DNA of 33,297 bases from the IMG/VR virus record IMGVR_UViG_3300010399_000067, positions 1-33,297 of that record. One strand, given 5' to 3'. The position numbers and the translations under genes are program-made. The notes under the pieces were generated by a model. That model worked only from the letters and a program-made list of their open reading frames with translations, had not been told where the DNA came from and did no database searches. Shown one piece after another: positions 5,343-30,146 of this stretch. The DNA comes from a virus. Every line of letters starts with the position of its first letter. The stretch's first letter is position 1.

Positions 5343-5348
5343 GTTATA

Positions 5349-5600
5349 TCAAAGGGTCAACCATATTAAAGTATCGTCCGATGGTCCGGCAGGCCCTTGC
5401 GGTCCCGTCGCTCCTGTTGCTCCCGTAGATCCCGTTGCTCCTGTTTCACCTTTCGGACCCGGGGGTCCATCAGACCCTTTCAAACCTACCGATCCCGGTG
5501 GACCCGGTGGACCCGATGGACCGGGTGGACCCGGGGGGCCGTCAGAACCTCCCGTAGATATTCCAAATCTTCCTCCTGCGGTATATGTTACTCTACCCAT
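5349..5600 (-). CDS. Short collagen-like Gly-X-Y protein
   Basis: 83 residues. From residue 18 to about 72 there are some 18 consecutive Gly-X-Y triplets with many prolines ([16 protein letters not shown], then [17 protein letters not shown]). Flanking segments are short ([13 protein letters not shown] and DDTLIWLTL). Collagen-like triplets form extended trimeric stalks in phage fibres. It follows the larger collagen/beta-helix fibre gene with a single-base spacing (TAATATG) and may be a linker or a small fibre partner of it. Repetitive DNA of this kind is prone to length change. Confidence 0.8.
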
Positions 5601-5601
5601 A

Positions 5602-7455
5602 TTAAGTCAGAAGCCCGTAGTCCCTGAGAGCGTCATTAACCTGTTTGAGTTTTCTCGCAAGCTGATAAATGTCGTTCCGAATAGCCGCTGCATCGACCGA
5701 GTAAGTATTCAGGTCCGTGAAATTCGCAATGGTCCCGTCGGTTCCACCAACCGTCACATTGTTTGTCAGATCCTCTCCGCTGGTCTGTTTCACGACAGGC
5801 GGCACTCCGGGGAAAAACGCCTGAACATCGAATTCGTTGTCGAGGACTGTTCCAGACACAACCGACCACGCTGGATTCGCCCCGCCGCAACCGCGTATCG
5901 ATCCGCTGAGAGTTGTCCCCCAAGCCGCGAATCCATTTTTCGCAAGACAGTTTTCGAAAACTCCGGACAAAATTCCTGTCGTCCCACCGAACATGCCGGA
6001 TGTGCTACCACTCGAAGCGGCATATCGGCAACGAAGGAAAACGCCTGAAAGTGTCGGAACATTCCCTCCTCCGTGACTCCAACCCCCGCCGTCAGCTTCG
6101 CAGTCGATGAAAGTTCCAGTGATCGATGAGTCGGCACTATCCGCGTAACCGAATGAAAGACCTGCGGCTTTGCACCTCAGCCAAAAACCCGCGACTGTGA
6201 CGGCTCCCGCAATCGCAACACCGAATGCGCGGCTGGTGTCCCAAGCACGAACGTCAGTCCAAGTGCCGGAGAAATTCTTGTCCCAAGGGGTAATCCGATT
6301 TCCGCCACCGGTCTTTCGAAGCAATACATTCGTGACCTTGAGTTTTATTCCGAACCCTGTTTGAGTCGTGTTGATCGCGCTTTCGTTACCCGCAGACACC
6401 GATTTGATGCAGAGGTTCGAAATGGAAATATCGTGTGACCCTGAGTCGGCGGCGGAATTGATGTTGATCGGATCGACTGTTGAGACGATAACGGTCTCGC
6501 CCTCGTCCTCGACAACTCCGCTGCGGAAATTCATTTGACCTGAGTTTTGCGACACTCCGGCCAGATCTATGTATAGAGTGTCGAGCGTGAGCGTTCCCGC
6601 TCCGAGATCGTATATGCCCGGGAGCAAGAAAATGGTAAACCGATTAGCGGTTGCGAGCGCGGCTCCGTTCGGAGTGGATGCCTTCGCGAAAACATAAGCG
6701 TCCTGCAACGCGGTGCCGTTCACCAAAGGATCGGCATCACCACCGATGAAAATATATGCGCTTCCGGGATTCGGAAAACCACCTGTGCCGGGAATTCCTT
6801 GCGGTCCCTGCGGTCCTGTGGCTCCGGGTGTTCCGGGCTCTCCCTGCGCTCCTGTCGGTCCCGGTGGGCCTTGAATCGCCGATCCCCCGGGCGGGCCTGT
6901 AGGGATGACGAGTTTACCGGCCGGTATGGTTCCAGAGGCACCGGGAACGGCTTGGACGAGAGTCAAAAAAAGCAATCCGCTCGGATCTGTTGCCGTGACG
7001 AGATACCATCCGGACGTGTCGATGAACACATACGAATTCACCAACATTGCCGGGGTCGGCTCCGTGAGAACGGACATGCTGAGGTTTCCCTCGGTCGGTT
7101 GGGTGAAACTTTGGAGAGTTACAGTGTAGGCATTGAACCCATCCTGACCGGGATCTCCCTCAGGCCCCTGAGGACCGGTAAGTCCTATAATTCCTTCATT
7201 GAACAGCCGAAGAAAATAGCAAGCGAGACCTTCATCGGCTCCTCTCGGATTATTCGGCAGACCAGTATCGAGATCGCATGGAAGAGTCCAGATGACTTCA
7301 CCATTGATCTCAGTCTTGATTACCTCTCCGAAAAACTGCATCGTAAAATTCGAGATCTGCGATGGCAGGGACTCGCACGCAGCCGTATTTTGCTGCGTCA
7401 CCGCGCACGGATTGTTCGAGCATCCGCTCGGGACGTTAAAGGAATTACACGACAT
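5602..7455 (-). CDS. Tail fibre/spike with collagen-like segments and beta-helix
   Basis: 617 residues in modules. Residues 1-90 hold a Cys-containing head and a beta domain; collagen-like triplets occur at about 91-104 ([16 protein letters not shown]) and again at about 185-225 ([16 protein letters not shown]); between them is a beta domain ending in [12 protein letters not shown]. From about 235 onward the pattern is of a right-handed parallel beta-helix of pectate-lyase type ([20 protein letters not shown], then repeated turns such as [12 protein letters not shown] and [12 protein letters not shown]). The last 30 residues are helical ([19 protein letters not shown]), a likely trimerising coiled coil. 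A good ribosome-binding site (GGAAAGG) precedes the start. This suggests a receptor-binding spike; enzymatic activity cannot be judged. Confidence 0.85.
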
Positions 7456-21416: not shown

Positions 21417-23363
21417 TTAAAGTATCGCTTCCTCTGTCGGCCGGTTTCCGTCGTCGAGAAACTGCGTTCTATTAGATTCATCGATCCTCGCGCCTCCGCG
21501 AAGTTGGATCTCGTCGAGCCAGCCGTCGGTATCGTCGCCGCCTCCGGGCATGTCGGAAGTCGCGTCGAGATTCATACTCAGAGTCACACCGGAACCTTTC
21601 CGGGCGGCATGAACGAGGAGTGTCAGACTGTCGGCCTCGTCCGGTGACTCGAACCCGCGAGAGATGTAATCCCGCTTTTGCTCGACTCGGGTTTTTCCCC
21701 CGGTGATCCGAAACTTTCGCTGCGTGAGTTGCTGCGTGAGTTTCGTCATGTCAATTTCCGGGGAGATGAGAAAATATTGAAACTCGCCCCACTTCTTGAG
21801 TGCGAACCAGAGTTCCGTGTTCATCCGTTCGTATTCCTCGAAACATGGCTTGCTGTCTTCGACCATGATTTTGTCCTTGCTGCACGCCTCCGAAAAATTC
21901 ACGTCATGGATGCTCGGGCTCCATTCGTGTTTTATCAAGTCGGCAACTCCCGCGCCCGCGCCCGTTCGATCACAAGCGAAAAATTCCCCGCGAACGCCAG
22001 CTTTGCGGTTCACTTCAACGGTTCGGTCGGTTTGCTGACGGGTGTCTCCCTTTGGGATGGTGAATTGCTGGTCTGCTTGGAGTGCCCATCTGACGATTGA
22101 GTGTCCGTTTCGGTCCTTGAACATGACCTTTCGCCCGGTGGGAAACTCAATAGAAGGAGGAAATTGAATACCAGTTGCTCGTCCCCATTTTCCGAGTGTA
22201 TATATAGCAGCGGCCCCGCCTTCGAGTGCCAGATCCTCAGATCCGATGGGTTTTGGGTCGTCATACCAGATGAATTTTCCCCGCCATTTTGCAAGCATAC
22301 CGGGCGGAATGACTGTTAGTTCGATTCCTTGAGGCGGGTATGCTCCGCGCCCCATTGTGTAATACCCCGCACTGCCTCTGCCTCCGGCGTTCTTTGCGAT
22401 GTTCTCAAGTCCGGATCGAGTTTGCAGGCCGTTGAAAACGATTCGCCCCTCGGTGACGTTCTCCGATCTCTCTCCATCGAGACGCAACACATCCCAGTCG
22501 CGTTTCGATTTCCACTTGTAGTGGTTCTCCACATCGAAACCTTCCCAACCGAACGGTGGCTCAACTCGCTTCGCCAATTCGTCTCCCTGATTCGTCGGAT
22601 TGAACGCGCCGAAAAGTTTGAATCCGCTCGTGTCGCCTTCCTCTTGAATGTTCGAGAGGATGTTATCAATATCTGACCAAAGTCCCCCGGGGACGTTTTC
22701 GATTTCGTCCACGAAAATAAACAGCCGCGACAACGCGCCGAAAATATTGTGCGGGTTCGGTCTCGGCTTCCGCTTCACACCTTGAAGCCGACCGGCTTTT
22801 TTCTTCTGGCCCACAGGGATGATAATCCCTTTGATACTCGAAAGCTGATTGCGCCGGTCGAGCCCGATGAAAAGTTCCCCCACTTCACCGGGCATCGGCA
22901 GACTCGCGGACTTGTGCAGGCCGACAAGATGGGAAAACAAATTCTGTTCGAGGTGATCCTCGCTCGGGCCGAGGACTCGAACCGTCGTCCATTCCGGATC
23001 TCGAATCCATTCGAGAAAAAGCCGCACGCCGACACCGTAGGATTTGCTGCACGACGCCGCGCCCATTATCAGACCGTGACTGGATGTCTCGAAAAGGCTC
23101 CAAAGGTCTCGGGTGAACTTCGGCTCCGGCGTGAACTGGTTTGCGGTCCAGAGAACCTGCGCGGCGGCTTCCGGTGCGTTTGCGTTCAGGAGATAATGAA
23201 CGTAGTGCATCAGCACCGGCAGGTATTTCTTCGGGTCGTCCTCCAGACGCAAGTTCAGCCGCAGATAATCATCAATCGATTTCGCGGCCTCAAATTTCTT
23301 GTCGGAGTGAACAAGCTTCGCGACGTATGCCGCGAGTGCAATTTCGGTCTTATCGGTGAGCAT
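21417..23363 (-). CDS. terL: Terminase large subunit (ATPase and nuclease)
   Basis: 648 residues from MLTDKTEIAL. I prefer this ATG because longer reading runs over the tRNA-like gene just upstream. Walker A-like GAASCSKS is at 101-108, in a non-canonical form lacking the usual G-K-T/S consensus in full but keeping Lys-Ser. Walker B is LFIFVDE at about 214-220, and the coupling-type TNP motif follows in GAFNPTNQ (about 252-259). The nuclease domain shows acidic residues in a RNase H-like order: EDLALEGG (about 376-383), FFACDRTGAG (Asp465) and SPDEADSL (573-580). It docks at the portal and translocates and cuts DNA. No ribosome-binding site precedes the ATG. Confidence 0.95.
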   Translation of the reverse strand: MLTDKTEIALAAYVAKLVHSDKKFEAAKSIDDYLRLNLRLEDDPKKYLPVLMHYVHYLLNANAPEAAAQVLWTANQFTPEPKFTRDLWSLFETSSHGLIMGAASCSKSYGVGVRLFLEWIRDPEWTTVRVLGPSEDHLEQNLFSHLVGLHKSASLPMPGEVGELFIGLDRRNQLSSIKGIIIPVGQKKKAGRLQGVKRKPRPNPHNIFGALSRLFIFVDEIENVPGGLWSDIDNILSNIQEEGDTSGFKLFGAFNPTNQGDELAKRVEPPFGWEGFDVENHYKWKSKRDWDVLRLDGERSENVTEGRIVFNGLQTRSGLENIAKNAGGRGSAGYYTMGRGAYPPQGIELTVIPPGMLAKWRGKFIWYDDPKPIGSEDLALEGGAAAIYTLGKWGRATGIQFPPSIEFPTGRKVMFKDRNGHSIVRWALQADQQFTIPKGDTRQQTDRTVEVNRKAGVRGEFFACDRTGAGAGVADLIKHEWSPSIHDVNFSEACSKDKIMVEDSKPCFEEYERMNTELWFALKKWGEFQYFLISPEIDMTKLTQQLTQRKFRITGGKTRVEQKRDYISRGFESPDEADSLTLLVHAARKGSGVTLSMNLDATSDMPGGGDDTDGWLDEIQLRGGARIDESNRTQFLDDGNRPTEEAIL

Positions 23364-23373
23364 CGATAAAAAG

Positions 23374-23449
23374 TGGTCGGAACGGCAGGACTTGCACCTG
23401 CGGCCTCCCGGTTCCAAGCCGGGCCGTCTGCTACTGACATTACGCTCCG
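23374..23449 (-). tRNA. tRNA-Pro(UGG) with CCA encoded, divergent D and T loops
   Basis: 76 bases fold into a cloverleaf: acceptor CGGAGCG/CGTTCCG (one G-U), anticodon stem CCCGG/CCGGG with loop CTTGGAA (anticodon UGG after U33), T stem GCAGG/CCTGC with loop TGCAAGT, variable loop of 5, A73 and CCA. C1-G72, A73 and the GG of the anticodon are those of proline tRNA. Odd points are A37 instead of G37, a D stem of TGTC/GACG with loop AGTAGCA that lacks the usual GG, and G55 instead of U55 in the T loop. It ends 10 bases before the terminase start. Confidence 0.75.
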
Positions 23450-23693: not shown

Positions 23694-23864
23694 TTATGCG
23701 CCGGTTTTCTCCCTGTTCTTGGGGTGTCCGTTCTTGTAGTCGGGGTGGGAATTGTTGGCTATTCTGGCGATACGCAGTATCGCGTCTTCCTTGAATTTGC
23801 GAGCTAGACTCTGAACCACACAGGTTCGGTCTCCTGACTTGAATGCTTTAAACTGTCCGTCCAT
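23694..23864 (-). CDS. Small basic protein of unknown function
   Basis: 56 residues (MDGQFKAFKSGDRTCVVQSL...). A strong ribosome-binding site, GAAAGGAG, lies eight bases before the ATG and decides this start over a longer reading upstream inside the recombinase gene. It overlaps the recombinase end by 17 bases. The sequence is Lys/Arg-rich (ARKFKEDAILRIARIA) with a helix in the middle and could be a small DNA-binding or accessory factor; no family recognised. A terminator follows about 20 bases after its stop. Confidence 0.65.
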   Translation of the reverse strand: MDGQFKAFKSGDRTCVVQSLARKFKEDAILRIARIANNSHPDYKNGHPKNREKTGA

Positions 23865-24642
23865 TTTGTTGCTCCTTTCGTTGTTGGTTGATGCGAAAAA
23901 TATTCTCCGCATGGTGATCTTTCGGTTTGCGCGTCCAAACTCCTGCAACGCGCATAATTTGAAGAGTGTTTTTCTTGTTCCACTTGTTCCCGCGACGGGT
24001 AAGAAAACCCTCCGCGTTCAGAAAATCCGCAACCGAGTCGATGGTCATCGTCGGATTAACATAGATTTTCAAGGTTTGGAGTATCGCCCGCTCTTGCGGT
24101 GTCTTGCCGTAGGGCACACCGCCCTCGCAACGGCCGGTCTTGCGCTTCACTGCGAGCCGTGCTTTCCGCAGCTTCAGGACCGTTTGCGCCTTCTCCCACT
24201 GCGCGAGTGCGCCCATGACCTGACGAATAAGTGTCCGAGTCGGATCTCCGTCATCGGAGGCGAGATCGATTAGTTCCCCCCGGTCGGCCGCATAAACTTT
24301 GATTGATCTCTCTCGGCACTGTTTCAGCAAAACTTCCTGAACCATGAGGTCACGCGCAAGCCGGTCCATTCGCTCGACCACGATGCCAGCGACATCCTCG
24401 CCGTTTTTCCGCCTGCATTCGATGGCTTCAACCATTTCGCTGAACTTCGGCCGGTCCATGCCTTCAACGGTTCCGCTGACGCCCTCCTCGAAAAATTCTC
24501 CCCCGTAAACGAGGCGACTGCCGCAGAATTCGCGGATGGTCTCCCTCTGACGATCCGGGCCTTCACCGGAGATCTGGCCCCGGCCGCTGACGCGAATGTA
24601 GCCGTAAACTATCGGCAACTCAATGATTTCGTCTTCGTTCAT
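23848..24642 (-). CDS. Serine recombinase (resolvase/invertase family)
   Basis: 264 residues. The catalytic domain has YGYIRVSGRGQ with the nucleophilic Ser19, the second segment EGVSGTVEGMDRPKFSEMVE, and VVERMDRLARD with the conserved arginines. A recombinase domain follows (RCEGGVPYGKTPQERAILQTL and a helix-turn-helix-like ADFLNAEGFLTRRGNKW). It is mid-sized: longer than simple resolvases and shorter than large serine integrases, and lacks the long coiled coil and zinc ribbon. It makes a double-strand cut at a crossover site with a 5' phosphoserine link. It could be an integrase, an invertase for a tail-fibre switch, or a mobile resolvase. Start overlaps the previous stop as ATGA. Confidence 0.9.
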   Translation of the reverse strand: MNEDEIIELPIVYGYIRVSGRGQISGEGPDRQRETIREFCGSRLVYGGEFFEEGVSGTVEGMDRPKFSEMVEAIECRRKNGEDVAGIVVERMDRLARDLMVQEVLLKQCRERSIKVYAADRGELIDLASDDGDPTRTLIRQVMGALAQWEKAQTVLKLRKARLAVKRKTGRCEGGVPYGKTPQERAILQTLKIYVNPTMTIDSVADFLNAEGFLTRRGNKWNKKNTLQIMRVAGVWTRKPKDHHAENIFRINQQRKEQQNGRTV

Positions 24643-27744: not shown

Positions 27745-28473
27745 TCAGTGGTCGTCGTTGTCATGGGGGTTGGGTTGGCACTCAGCTTGCTTGATCTGCG
27801 TGGCTGCAACCTCAAGCTTCAGGTCGAATAGCTTGGCTCGGGTGCCGTTGCTGTTCTTCGCCTCGGCCATTGCCTTTGCGATTCGCACGCTCAGTTCACC
27901 TGCGTCGGTCTGGTCGTCAGTCGCCTGTTCCTTGCGCCGTCCTCGGTCCTGCGCCGTGTCGTTCAATGCCAGGTATGTCATGGCTTGGCATTTCTCAATC
28001 GCTGTTGCGAGATCTGCGAGCGCACGAGTGGAAAGTTTCTTCACCTCGTCTTTCACGCTACCGTCCTTGTTGTATCTGGTCTCACCGACAAACAAATACT
28101 CTCTCAGCTCGGCCTCAGACATCCCGGTGATTCGAGCCATGACCTTCTCCAGAAAGATCCACAGGCGGCGAGCCTGAACGAAATTCAGAGCTCTATTAAC
28201 TCCTCGCTCAAAATCTCCGGGGCGATTGGATTTCTTCAGCTCGATGATTGGCTTCAGCTTGTCAACCCAACCCTCATCATCGACCATCCGCAACACATCA
28301 ACGGCTCGGATGTTGAGTGCGTGCGCGGTTCGTTCGATGTCGCCACAGAATGTGGCATAGAGCAAAAAAGCTTGCTCTCGGTCCATGACGTATTCAACGT
28401 CTTCAGGTTTGCGGGGAACTGGGATTGATACTGGGTCCATAGTGTGTTGTGCTGCGGGGGTTGTTGATTCCAA
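27745..28473 (-). CDS. Probable terminase small subunit or DNA-binding helix-turn-helix protein
   Basis: 242 residues with a TTG start; an ATG at 28440 gives 231 residues and is an equal candidate. The first 80 residues include a helix-turn-helix pattern (FLLYATFCGDIERTAHALNI, RAVDVLRMVDDEGW), similar to the DNA-binding head of small terminase subunits. A helical middle (RALNFVQARRLWIFLEKVMA, LREYLFVGETRY) and a charged C-terminal tail (AKLFDLKLEVAATQIKQ) follow, as expected of oligomerising small terminases. It is separated from the large subunit by several kilobases. A transcription regulator of the same fold is the alternative. Confidence 0.6.
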   Translation of the reverse strand: MESTTPAAQHTMDPVSIPVPRKPEDVEYVMDREQAFLLYATFCGDIERTAHALNIRAVDVLRMVDDEGWVDKLKPIIELKKSNRPGDFERGVNRALNFVQARRLWIFLEKVMARITGMSEAELREYLFVGETRYNKDGSVKDEVKKLSTRALADLATAIEKCQAMTYLALNDTAQDRGRRKEQATDDQTDAGELSVRIAKAMAEAKNSNGTRAKLFDLKLEVAATQIKQAECQPNPHDNDDH

Positions 28474-28648
28474 TCATTCCGATTGTGTGTCCTGTCCGAA
28501 CCCAACGTCGGCCGACATGCAGTCGGTCTTCATCGAGCAATTCGCGGCGGTGATACGAACAGGGCCAAGGCAAATCGAAGGCCCACACCTCGGCTGCTAC
28601 TCGGGCGAATTCTGCGTCGGTGTATGACCTTGATTCTGTCTCTTCCAT
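28403..28648 (-). CDS. Small protein of unknown function
   Basis: 81 residues (MEETESRSYTDAEFARVAAE...). A Trp-rich middle (EVWAFDLPWPCSYHRRELL) is followed by GRRWVRTGHTIGMIGINN. The reading overlaps both neighbours, by 71 bases with the following gene and 52 bases with the Arg/Gln-rich gene before it, each in a different frame. A GAGAG element lies shortly before the ATG. Composition is natural for a coding frame. No family recognised. Confidence 0.55.
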   Translation of the reverse strand: MEETESRSYTDAEFARVAAEVWAFDLPWPCSYHRRELLDEDRLHVGRRWVRTGHTIGMIGINNPRSTTHYGPSINPSSPQT

Positions 28649-28749
28649 TGCTCTCGTTGTTTCTGCCTGCGCTCACGTTTTGCTTGGGCGTTCAAACGCC
28701 TGATTGCCTCAGGCGCTCCAGCGAAAAGGTCGGGCTCTCTCTGCTTCAC
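28597..28749 (-). CDS. Short basic, Gln/Arg-rich gene starting at GTG
   Basis: 50 residues (MKQREPDLFAGAPEAIRRLN...), helical and basic (AQAKRERRQKQREQWKRQNQ). It is the first gene of the leftward operon if the GTG at 28749 is used; the frame is open further upstream to about 28840 but with no ATG. A GAGAG element lies 12 bases before the GTG. Its size and charge suggest an RNA- or DNA-binding regulator. Evidence is only composition and continuous frame. Confidence 0.4.
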   Translation of the reverse strand: MKQREPDLFAGAPEAIRRLNAQAKRERRQKQREQWKRQNQGHTPTQNSPE

Positions 28750-28870
28750 ACCGAAAAGGTGATCTCTCGCGGCGAAAGCCGCCTCAACTTTTTGTAGTAA
28801 AGAAAACTGCGCCCGAATAAAAACTGAAACTCTTAAAGTGACTTAAGTGGCGCTACCCAAAGGGGGGGCC

Positions 28871-28898
28871 TTGGTCGTTCTTTAAACATAAATACTAT
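28871..28898 (+). promoter_or_regulatory. Rightward promoter candidate in the left arm
   Basis: TTGGTC (28871-28876) and TACTAT (28893-28898) are 16 bases apart and read rightward through the centre and the right arm to the gene at 29105. The -35 is one base from consensus at positions 4 and 5 and weak; its inverted counterpart strengthens it. A second AT-rich TATAAT in the centre is another possible -10. Confidence 0.5.
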
Positions 28899-28933
28899 AC
28901 CACGCGAAATAGTATATATAATAAAAAGGGATA

Positions 28934-28950
28934 CCCGGCATACAGCCGGG
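28934..28950. other. Small GC hairpin in the core of the control region
   Basis: CCCGGC and GCCGGG pair around the five-base loop ATACA, next to the AT-rich stretch. There is no T-tract of terminator type on either side. It may be a protein or RNA structure element of the control region. Confidence 0.6.
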
Positions 28951-28958
28951 AGGACGGT

Positions 28959-28987
28959 TGTGTATTGCTTGTTAAAGATCCACCAAG
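28959..28987 (-). promoter_or_regulatory. Leftward promoter candidate in the right arm
   Basis: On the minus strand TTGGTG (28987-28982) and TACACA (28964-28959) are 17 bases apart and mirror the promoter in the left arm, one base longer. It would transcribe leftward through the left arm to the gene chain that starts at 28749. The -10 is weak. Confidence 0.4.
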
Positions 28988-29104
28988 GGGGGTGGCTTGG
29001 GTAGCGCCGATTAAGTCACTTTAAGTGTTTCAGTTTTTAACTCTCGACCGGGTTCGTTAAAATAGAAGTTGTGTTCGCCCTCGCGGTTTGCGATACTGCC
29101 GCAG

Positions 29105-29545
29105 ATGAGAACTTCAGAAGCAATGTTCGATAGAGCGAGACGCTTAACGCGGATCGAGTTCCGACTCTGTCCCACCGACACTCCCGAACTTCAGGAGTAT
29201 CAACTCACGAAACACCTCGCCAAACATTCCCCGGTGAATGTGACTTGGTATCACTCAAAGACTATGTGGGCCGCTCGGACACCTGTTATGCGAGGCCGGG
29301 GCAAACTCATCGGTCTCACTCCGAATATTGAGGCTGCGTGCAGGTTCGCGGATATGGGCACGCGATATTTCAATGTCCTCATCGGTCACGAATTCACGCG
29401 CTACAATTTTTCGGAAGCGCAAGCGAACCTTGATCTCCTGTATTACCCGGAAGCATTCGAGTTATTGCGCGACTGGGCAAAGTCATTCGGTCTAAATCCT
29501 AGTCTCTTCGAACTACACTTAAATCTTTATGCCATTCAAACCTGA
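29105..29545 (+). CDS. AP2-like domain protein A
   Basis: 146 residues from MRTSEAMFDRARRL; the longer reading starts at TTG (29069) and was rejected for lack of an ATG. The middle reads VNVTWYHSKTMWAARTPVM, then a LIGLTPNIEAACRFADMGTR stretch and YNFSEAQANLD. This resembles the three-strand/one-helix AP2/ERF module (strand, LG-turn, EAA...AD helix, NF end) found also in phage endonucleases. The next gene has the same ACRFADM and NFS.AQA features, so it is a paralogue. It is first of the rightward operon. DNA binding is inferred from the fold pattern. Confidence 0.68.
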   Translation: MRTSEAMFDRARRLTRIEFRLCPTDTPELQEYQLTKHLAKHSPVNVTWYHSKTMWAARTPVMRGRGKLIGLTPNIEAACRFADMGTRYFNVLIGHEFTRYNFSEAQANLDLLYYPEAFELLRDWAKSFGLNPSLFELHLNLYAIQT

Positions 29546-30146
29546 CGATCCAATTCTCGCCGAGATATGCAAAGACTCCGCGACACTGTTGTTTCAACCG
29601 AGTATCGAACCGAGGGTAATAAACTCGATGCACCACGTTTACTGCCTGCCTGCAATTACACGCAGGCCATACGTGGTGAAGTTTTCAATCGGCGGTCGGG
29701 TTCGCACTCTCGGCTTTTTCTCGCTGAGGGAAAGTGCGTGCAGATTCGCCGACATGGTCACGCTGCGATTCTGGAAATATCGCAAGCGAAACACACCTCA
29801 GCGATTCAACTTTTCTCAGGCGCAGGCAGAGACCGACACCAACACTCACACCGAGGCGGCTTTCATCCTCGCACAGATCGAGAACCATTTGTCCGCGCAC
29901 CTCACGGAGTATGTCAACCGCACACCAATTCCCCGAAAGAAAAAGTTGTCTTTCGATGACCGTGTTGCTACGCTTCGGGAAGATATTGCGAAACTCGAAG
30001 CGCGAATCGCGGATCTCGAATCGAAGTCAGCGCCACACACGGATATTTTCTACGGCACAGAGTCGCCGACCATACAAAATTTCGACTCAATCGACAAACC
30101 AACAATAACGAAGCCAGTAACACTATGGACAACGAAACCAACATAA
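29529..30146 (+). CDS. AP2-like domain protein B with coiled-coil tail
   Basis: 205 residues, overlapping the end of its paralogue by 17 bases. The AP2-like module lies at about 48-105: RPYVVKFSIGGRVRTLGFFS, LRESACRFADMVTLRF, and QRFNFSQAQAETD. A charged helix follows (RVATLREDIAKLEARIADLE), a likely coiled coil for dimerisation, then a Thr/Pro-rich tail. The tandem pair suggests gene duplication. It could be a DNA-binding regulator, which would suit the position near the control region. Confidence 0.68.
   Translation: MPFKPDDPILAEICKDSATLLFQPSIEPRVINSMHHVYCLPAITRRPYVVKFSIGGRVRTLGFFSLRESACRFADMVTLRFWKYRKRNTPQRFNFSQAQAETDTNTHTEAAFILAQIENHLSAHLTEYVNRTPIPRKKKLSFDDRVATLREDIAKLEARIADLESKSAPHTDIFYGTESPTIQNFDSIDKPTITKPVTLWTTKPT

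Follow-up and report, generated by a model that had tools for sequence, protein, structure and literature searches.

What keeps two DNA arms in mirror image between divergent operons is the question that this locus raises. The window, meaning the whole stretch of DNA analysed, is a 33.3-kb virus record carrying a pair of inverted arms, which the first-pass annotation described as 56 bases long and as part of a divergent control region giving both operons the same leader. A repeat search of the window located an inverted repeat (28818-28860 and 28997-29039) with arms of 43 nt, 93% complementary and 136 nt apart, and BLAST recovered the arm-to-arm match within the record (E=2e-13) with no third arm copy there. 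Mirror-image arms around an AT-rich core are thus present as described, and the three runs said to be shared were found on both outward strands. The length of 56 bases is generous, because the symmetry weakens on the inner side of the 43-mer, where CCAAGG is mirrored and C7 of the left arm lies opposite G6 of the right arm in a centre-outward alignment; weaker symmetry does extend to about 56 nt, but the strong part covers only 43 nt. The element and its neighbouring genes comprise the following features.

21417-23417, minus strand: large-terminase-like gene, with Walker-like motifs by eye only; query for relatives
27745-28473, minus strand: conserved anchor gene, small-terminase-like by position only (homology alignments)
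28597-28749, minus strand: short basic ORF, probably the opening gene of the structural half-genome (ORF call)
28818-28860, minus strand: left inverted arm, reading outward on the minus strand as TTGGGTAGCGCCACTTAAGTCACTTTAAGAGTTTCAGTTTTTA (repeat search and BLAST)
28861-28873, minus strand: imperfect continuation of the left arm on its inner side, C7 against G6 in its partner, then the common CCAAGG
28874-28983, no strand: core between the arms, AT-rich in its left part; candidate bidirectional promoter or unwinding region
28893-28914, no strand: small dyad TACTAT-ACCACGCGAA-ATAGTA, two mirror-image -10-like hexamers around CGCG (read in the sequence)
28934-28950, minus strand: GC-rich hairpin followed by a T-rich tail inside the core, terminator-like and facing left
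28984-28996, plus strand: imperfect continuation of the right arm on its inner side (centre-outward alignment)
28997-29039, plus strand: right inverted arm, reading outward on the plus strand (repeat search and BLAST)
29069-29545, plus strand: first ORF of the opposite operon (ORF call)

Folded as a single strand, the whole 238 nt from 28810 to 29047 reaches -60.9 kcal/mol, compared with -25.3 kcal/mol for shuffles (z -9.9). The hairpin at 28934-28950 breaks up the core and seemingly puts the element of the window off-centre compared with those of relatives. A short basic ORF resembling the one at 28597-28749 was also read in L006 and L014.

Relatives were sought with the genes on either side. 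A search with the large-terminase-like protein returned 24 relatives and one with the anchor gene many more, while the first gene of the right operon, for which no family match was found, returned none. The 'terminase-like' names reflect position and motifs recognised by eye; searches by profile and by structure gave no Pfam, PHROG or PDB identification for the anchor gene and no match for the large-terminase-like gene. The comparison set contained 47 non-redundant relatives, including the window, and the 2 kb upstream of the anchor gene were scored in each with a cut-off of at least 40 bits. Quasi-palindromes reaching this cut-off occur in 32 of the 47; among the controls, 5 of 40 downstream 2-kb regions and none of 138 shuffles have one. 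The best of the upstream ones scores 239 bits, against 38 in shuffles. The other 15 relatives fall below 40 bits; some of these have shorter inverted repeats (for example L135, L119 and L134), and others, L093 and L051 among them, have none. A palindrome-free relative, L028, contains a repeated CATATG(C/T)TGTTTAAACGTTAC at 5346-5380 and 5803-5840, upstream of minus-strand genes.

In all 12 near-complete relatives that carry it (about 68-75 kb), the element ranks first among the palindromes of the genome (tied in G016), and none of these genomes contains a third arm copy. Across 35 homologous elements, the median arm is 43 nt long with 93% identity and the median spacer is 70 nt, with a median GC content of 0.30 in the core against 0.44 in the arms. 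The extremes include arms of 78 nt at 97% (L109), 107 nt at 91% (L115) and 43 nt at 100% (L111), and single-strand folding of the L109 element gives a z of -22. The element is identical across separate assemblies of one species, so an assembly artefact is unlikely. Related phages keep the inverted arms, whose loss there the first-pass annotation had named as a refutation, and the element is a lineage-wide feature; the description of a mirror-image divergent control region is supported in the window and in its relatives. The family to which it belongs is a diverse lineage of uncultured soil-type phages, in which the symmetry recurs across the family and the letters of the arms are private to each phage. 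The terminase-like and anchor-gene queries found no relatives among 50,697 phage and 72,556 plasmid records, and a single MAG contig was their sole match outside viral contigs. An exact search of the arm sequence against 2.9 million viral contigs was also empty, because that sequence is not conserved.

The layout is far broader than the first-pass annotation could show. Several contigs of 72-75 kb have ends that overlap by 50-127 nt and are therefore circular maps. When twelve genomes were rotated to place the element at zero, with coding taken as ORFs of 120 aa or more, 95-99% of the long-ORF coding was directed away from the element on both sides, and the coding halves met at one convergence point 29-49.5 kb from it. 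The element is thus the sole divergence point of this circular-map genome type. One half-genome carries the terminase-like genes and, we infer, the structural genes; the other, in G015, encodes a family A DNA polymerase, a DUF5906 protein, a helicase, an exonuclease and a sigma-70 region-4 protein. Linear genome ends, a hairpin telomere and the inverted repeats of a transposon were also weighed. Inverted arms are what each of these would show, but the element lies inside contigs at varying distances from their ends, most contigs run through it, several of the 72-75 kb contigs are circular maps, and the orthologous position, the differing arm sequences and the lack of a perfect central palindrome all count against such an explanation, which we regard as scarcely credible.

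The position of the element also bears on replication. In 7 of the 12 genomes the cumulative GC-skew minimum lies no more than 0.6 kb from the element, and in the other 5 it is 1.5-5.3 kb away; in 9 of the 12 the maximum is separated from the convergence point by about 3.5 kb or less. This picture agrees with what a bidirectional origin would produce, but transcription-driven skew would give the same, and the two are confounded because almost every gene is read outward from the hub. The earlier suggestion that the AT-rich core fits a replication origin thus gains indirect agreement from position and skew, with that confounding attached. A palindrome that forms a stem and serves as a bidirectional origin, in the manner of herpesvirus OriL or of the intergenic region of geminiviruses, would account for an AT-rich centre at the only divergence point, for the skew extremes in most genomes and for the strong single-strand folding of the window and L109 elements. 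It fits less well with the palindrome being weak or absent in some relatives and with the lack of a conserved initiator site, and we hold it to be a minority possibility.

A sigma70 consensus scan of 28000-30000 gave no site (1.4 expected by chance), so that the promoter-like sequences of the first-pass annotation were not confirmed and rest on inspection. Among the 35 elements, -10-like hexamers show a modest enrichment near the centre (within 20 nt), and the cores have in common only a weak enrichment of CGCG, ACGCG and GCGTA, with ACGCG the most enriched 5-mer (8 occurrences vs 0.8 expected). If transcription begins in the core, both transcripts would carry the same leader, and with two very long divergent gene blocks to be served, a shared structured leader RNA, such as a put/nut-type antitermination element or a riboswitch, has some appeal. 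The arms of the 35 elements, however, have no RNA structure above that of shuffles (mean z +0.16 outward and +0.30 on the other strand), the window leaders are likewise unstructured (z +0.65 and -0.18), Rfam and tRNA scans gave no match, and the sequence is not conserved between relatives. The structured, sequence-specific leader that had been proposed is therefore improbable. More generally, arms that are unrelated between phages, without a third copy and without RNA structure, disfavour both a structured leader and a conserved operator, and the same facts favour a bidirectional promoter or origin hub whose arms are repeatedly re-homogenised.

A comparison of closely related phages is consistent with such turnover. 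The two arms are 80-100% identical within a phage, and between phages their identity is near the shuffled level (12 pairs); short common pieces are limited to the closest relatives. For about 0.9 kb starting immediately right of the element, L126 and L127 match at 94% identity. Within each of them the arms are 97-100% alike, but the inner arms are wholly different between the two, and the only part of the arms in common is an outer stretch of about 17 nt (AGTTGGTTGACTTC[CT]GG), which all four retain. Similarly, GGTTGACT is found in both arms of L111, L126 and L127, AAGGTGC in both arms of L114 and L115, and CCTACCTACC in both arms of L094 and L097. Because the common pieces sit in both arms of each phage, the arms change together while diverging between relatives (L126/L127, L111, L114/L115). 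To the left of the element L126 and L127 are 75-82% identical, and since the left sides differ too, part of the difference between them comes from a recombination border at the element. This border, near position 2776, is sharp and lies beside the hub, with identity of 94% towards the structural genes and 75-82% towards the replication genes; modules may be exchanged at the hub. Strong palindromes are scattered over the anchor-gene tree (11 changes vs 12.9 in shuffles), a pattern that looks like decay and renewal, not simple inheritance.

We give an even chance to a bidirectional promoter hub, probably also an origin, whose arms are homogenised by template switching or gene conversion. From the AT-rich, roughly symmetric core, transcription would start in both directions, and replication, primed by that transcription, would probably begin there too, launching the two half-genomes of a genome of about 68-75 kb, structural genes one way and replication genes the other. 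A fork or transcription bubble would open the quasi-palindrome, and template switching or gene conversion would then copy one arm onto the other. Each phage would have its own arm sequence twice because one arm is copied onto the other, the mirror image being kept by repeated homogenisation and not by conserving a sequence, and both transcripts would begin with the same phage-private leader. Homogenisation of inverted-repeat arms by template switching is published (PMC8604942, PMC8794818, PMC3820800). Short-range template switching in yeast favours shorter spacers, and the spacers of the phage elements (median 70 nt) are long by comparison with those events (PMC8604942). Further points against this reading are the single spacer orientation seen within species, the empty sigma70 scan, the skew minima lying 1.5-5.3 kb off in 5 of the 12 genomes, the 15 relatives below 40 bits and the rather sharp arm ends, which a functional unit would give as well.

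The main rival to the homogenised hub is that the symmetry itself is selected. The promoters of both half-genomes would then show one site to a fast-evolving, phage-specific regulator, or the arms would form one cruciform; we hold this to be a minority possibility, and the corollary, a joint switching of both operons that a co-infecting relative would not trigger, is put forward just as tentatively. Such selection would account for the recurrence of the symmetry across the family and for the short common piece kept in both arms by the closest relatives. The rather sharp ends of the arms would also be expected of a functional unit, and a sigma-70 region-4 protein, present in all 30 near-complete relatives tested (above the curated cut-off in 26), could be the regulator. 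The missing third arm copy in the genomes tested, arms that otherwise resemble structureless, unrelated sequence and the scatter of strong palindromes on the tree speak against it. Homogenised hub and selected symmetry can both hold, and the confidence placed in one does not exclude the other. A further reading, which we offer as speculative, is a self-renewing 'private barcode' hub, in which the two leaders are kept identical by selection or by replication mechanics and their sequence is replaced fast, so that both operons of a phage would bear its own tag, read by its own factor.

An invertible promoter segment, flipped through the arms by a phage serine recombinase and choosing which half-genome is expressed, was likewise weighed. 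Inverted arms do flank a promoter-like core, and a PF00239 recombinase is present in 27 of 30 related genomes tested, but the recombinase also occurs in genomes where the palindrome is absent or weak, and no flipped core or inverted spacer was seen across the same-species assemblies compared (5 L043-type, 4 L119-type and 4 L127-type), which makes such a switch very improbable. On the evidence above, the structured leader, the inverted promoter segment, the telomere, the transposon and the assembly artefact were all rejected, and the homogenised hub is retained as the preferred reading.

Several other observations concern the genes around the hub. The lineage's PF00239 recombinase lies mostly on the structural side, some kb off the hub; that of the window (23848-24642, minus strand) has 'integrase' as its best PHROG. 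The enzyme may serve in integration, in dimer resolution or in inversion. The sigma-70 region-4 protein is mostly of about 210-300 aa (for example L066:12859-13491, minus strand), and some genomes add small ones. The first two right-operon ORFs of the window (29069-30146, plus strand) have a common 'ACRFADM..RF' motif, and their counterpart in L006 (1956-2579, minus strand) has the same motif together with an HNH-like CxxC seen by eye, which suggests that these ORFs encode AP2/HNH-type proteins. Just ahead of the first structural ORF, a T-rich motif resembling CACYNTTTTC, often preceded by a GC-rich stretch, was seen in the window (28690-28755, minus strand) and in L078, L085, L088, L100, L103 and L114. 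It may mark an initiation region of non-Shine-Dalgarno type, or else an attenuator; viewed as a leader terminator, it gave inconsistent hairpins. Two virion-side ORFs of the window (5349-7455, minus strand) contain collagen-like GPP/GPQ repeats. The structural half-genome carries at its far end a gene for a protein of 2466-2621 aa (L066:1004-8869 and L074:7109-14509, both plus strand), which has segments matching phrog_3170 and phrog_3842 (DUF7178) and may be a giant protein of the polyvalent or ejected kind.

Sequence alone has thus located what is probably the master switch, and may be the origin, of an uncultured phage lineage. It offers a naturally replicated case, with two DNA arms changing together at the same site in dozens of phages, and makes it testable whether long inverted repeats are identical since this is useful or since replication keeps rewriting one arm from the other. 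To our knowledge, no hypervariable mirrored control region like this has been described in dsDNA phages, and a literature search turned up no phage paper on an element of this kind, a weak argument for its novelty.

Prokaryotic bidirectional (pseudo-symmetric) promoters are short, with start sites usually 18 bp apart (PMC12825309). The phage element is like them in its AT-rich, roughly symmetric core, from which RNA polymerase might set off in either direction, but it mirrors tens of nucleotides on each flank, and no consensus promoter was found in it. HK022 put is a nascent-RNA element, and putL/putR, like nutL/nutR of lambda, supply two divergent early transcripts with a common leader element (PMC9378689); the phage arms would share that arrangement but lack structure and conservation, and hence the defining structure of put. 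The quasi-palindromes made by template switching likewise have inverted-repeat arms that become identical, but the published switches are described as scattered mutation events, whereas the phage element recurs at one orthologous site family-wide (PMC8604942, PMC8794818, PMC3820800).

A protelomerase site or genome-end repeat differs from the phage element, whose core is not perfectly palindromic and several of whose genomes show circular overlaps. HSV OriL is a palindrome with an AT-rich centre between divergent genes, and the phage element, a candidate origin, resembles it in all three respects but has no conserved initiator-binding boxes, and its arms change completely between relatives. 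In geminiviruses, which infect plants and have ssDNA genomes whose nick site is conserved in the loop, the intergenic or common region combines divergent transcription, a stem-forming sequence and a virus-private repeated stretch, a similar though unrelated layout. By analogy, HSV OriL and the geminivirus intergenic region appear to be the nearest layouts to the phage element.
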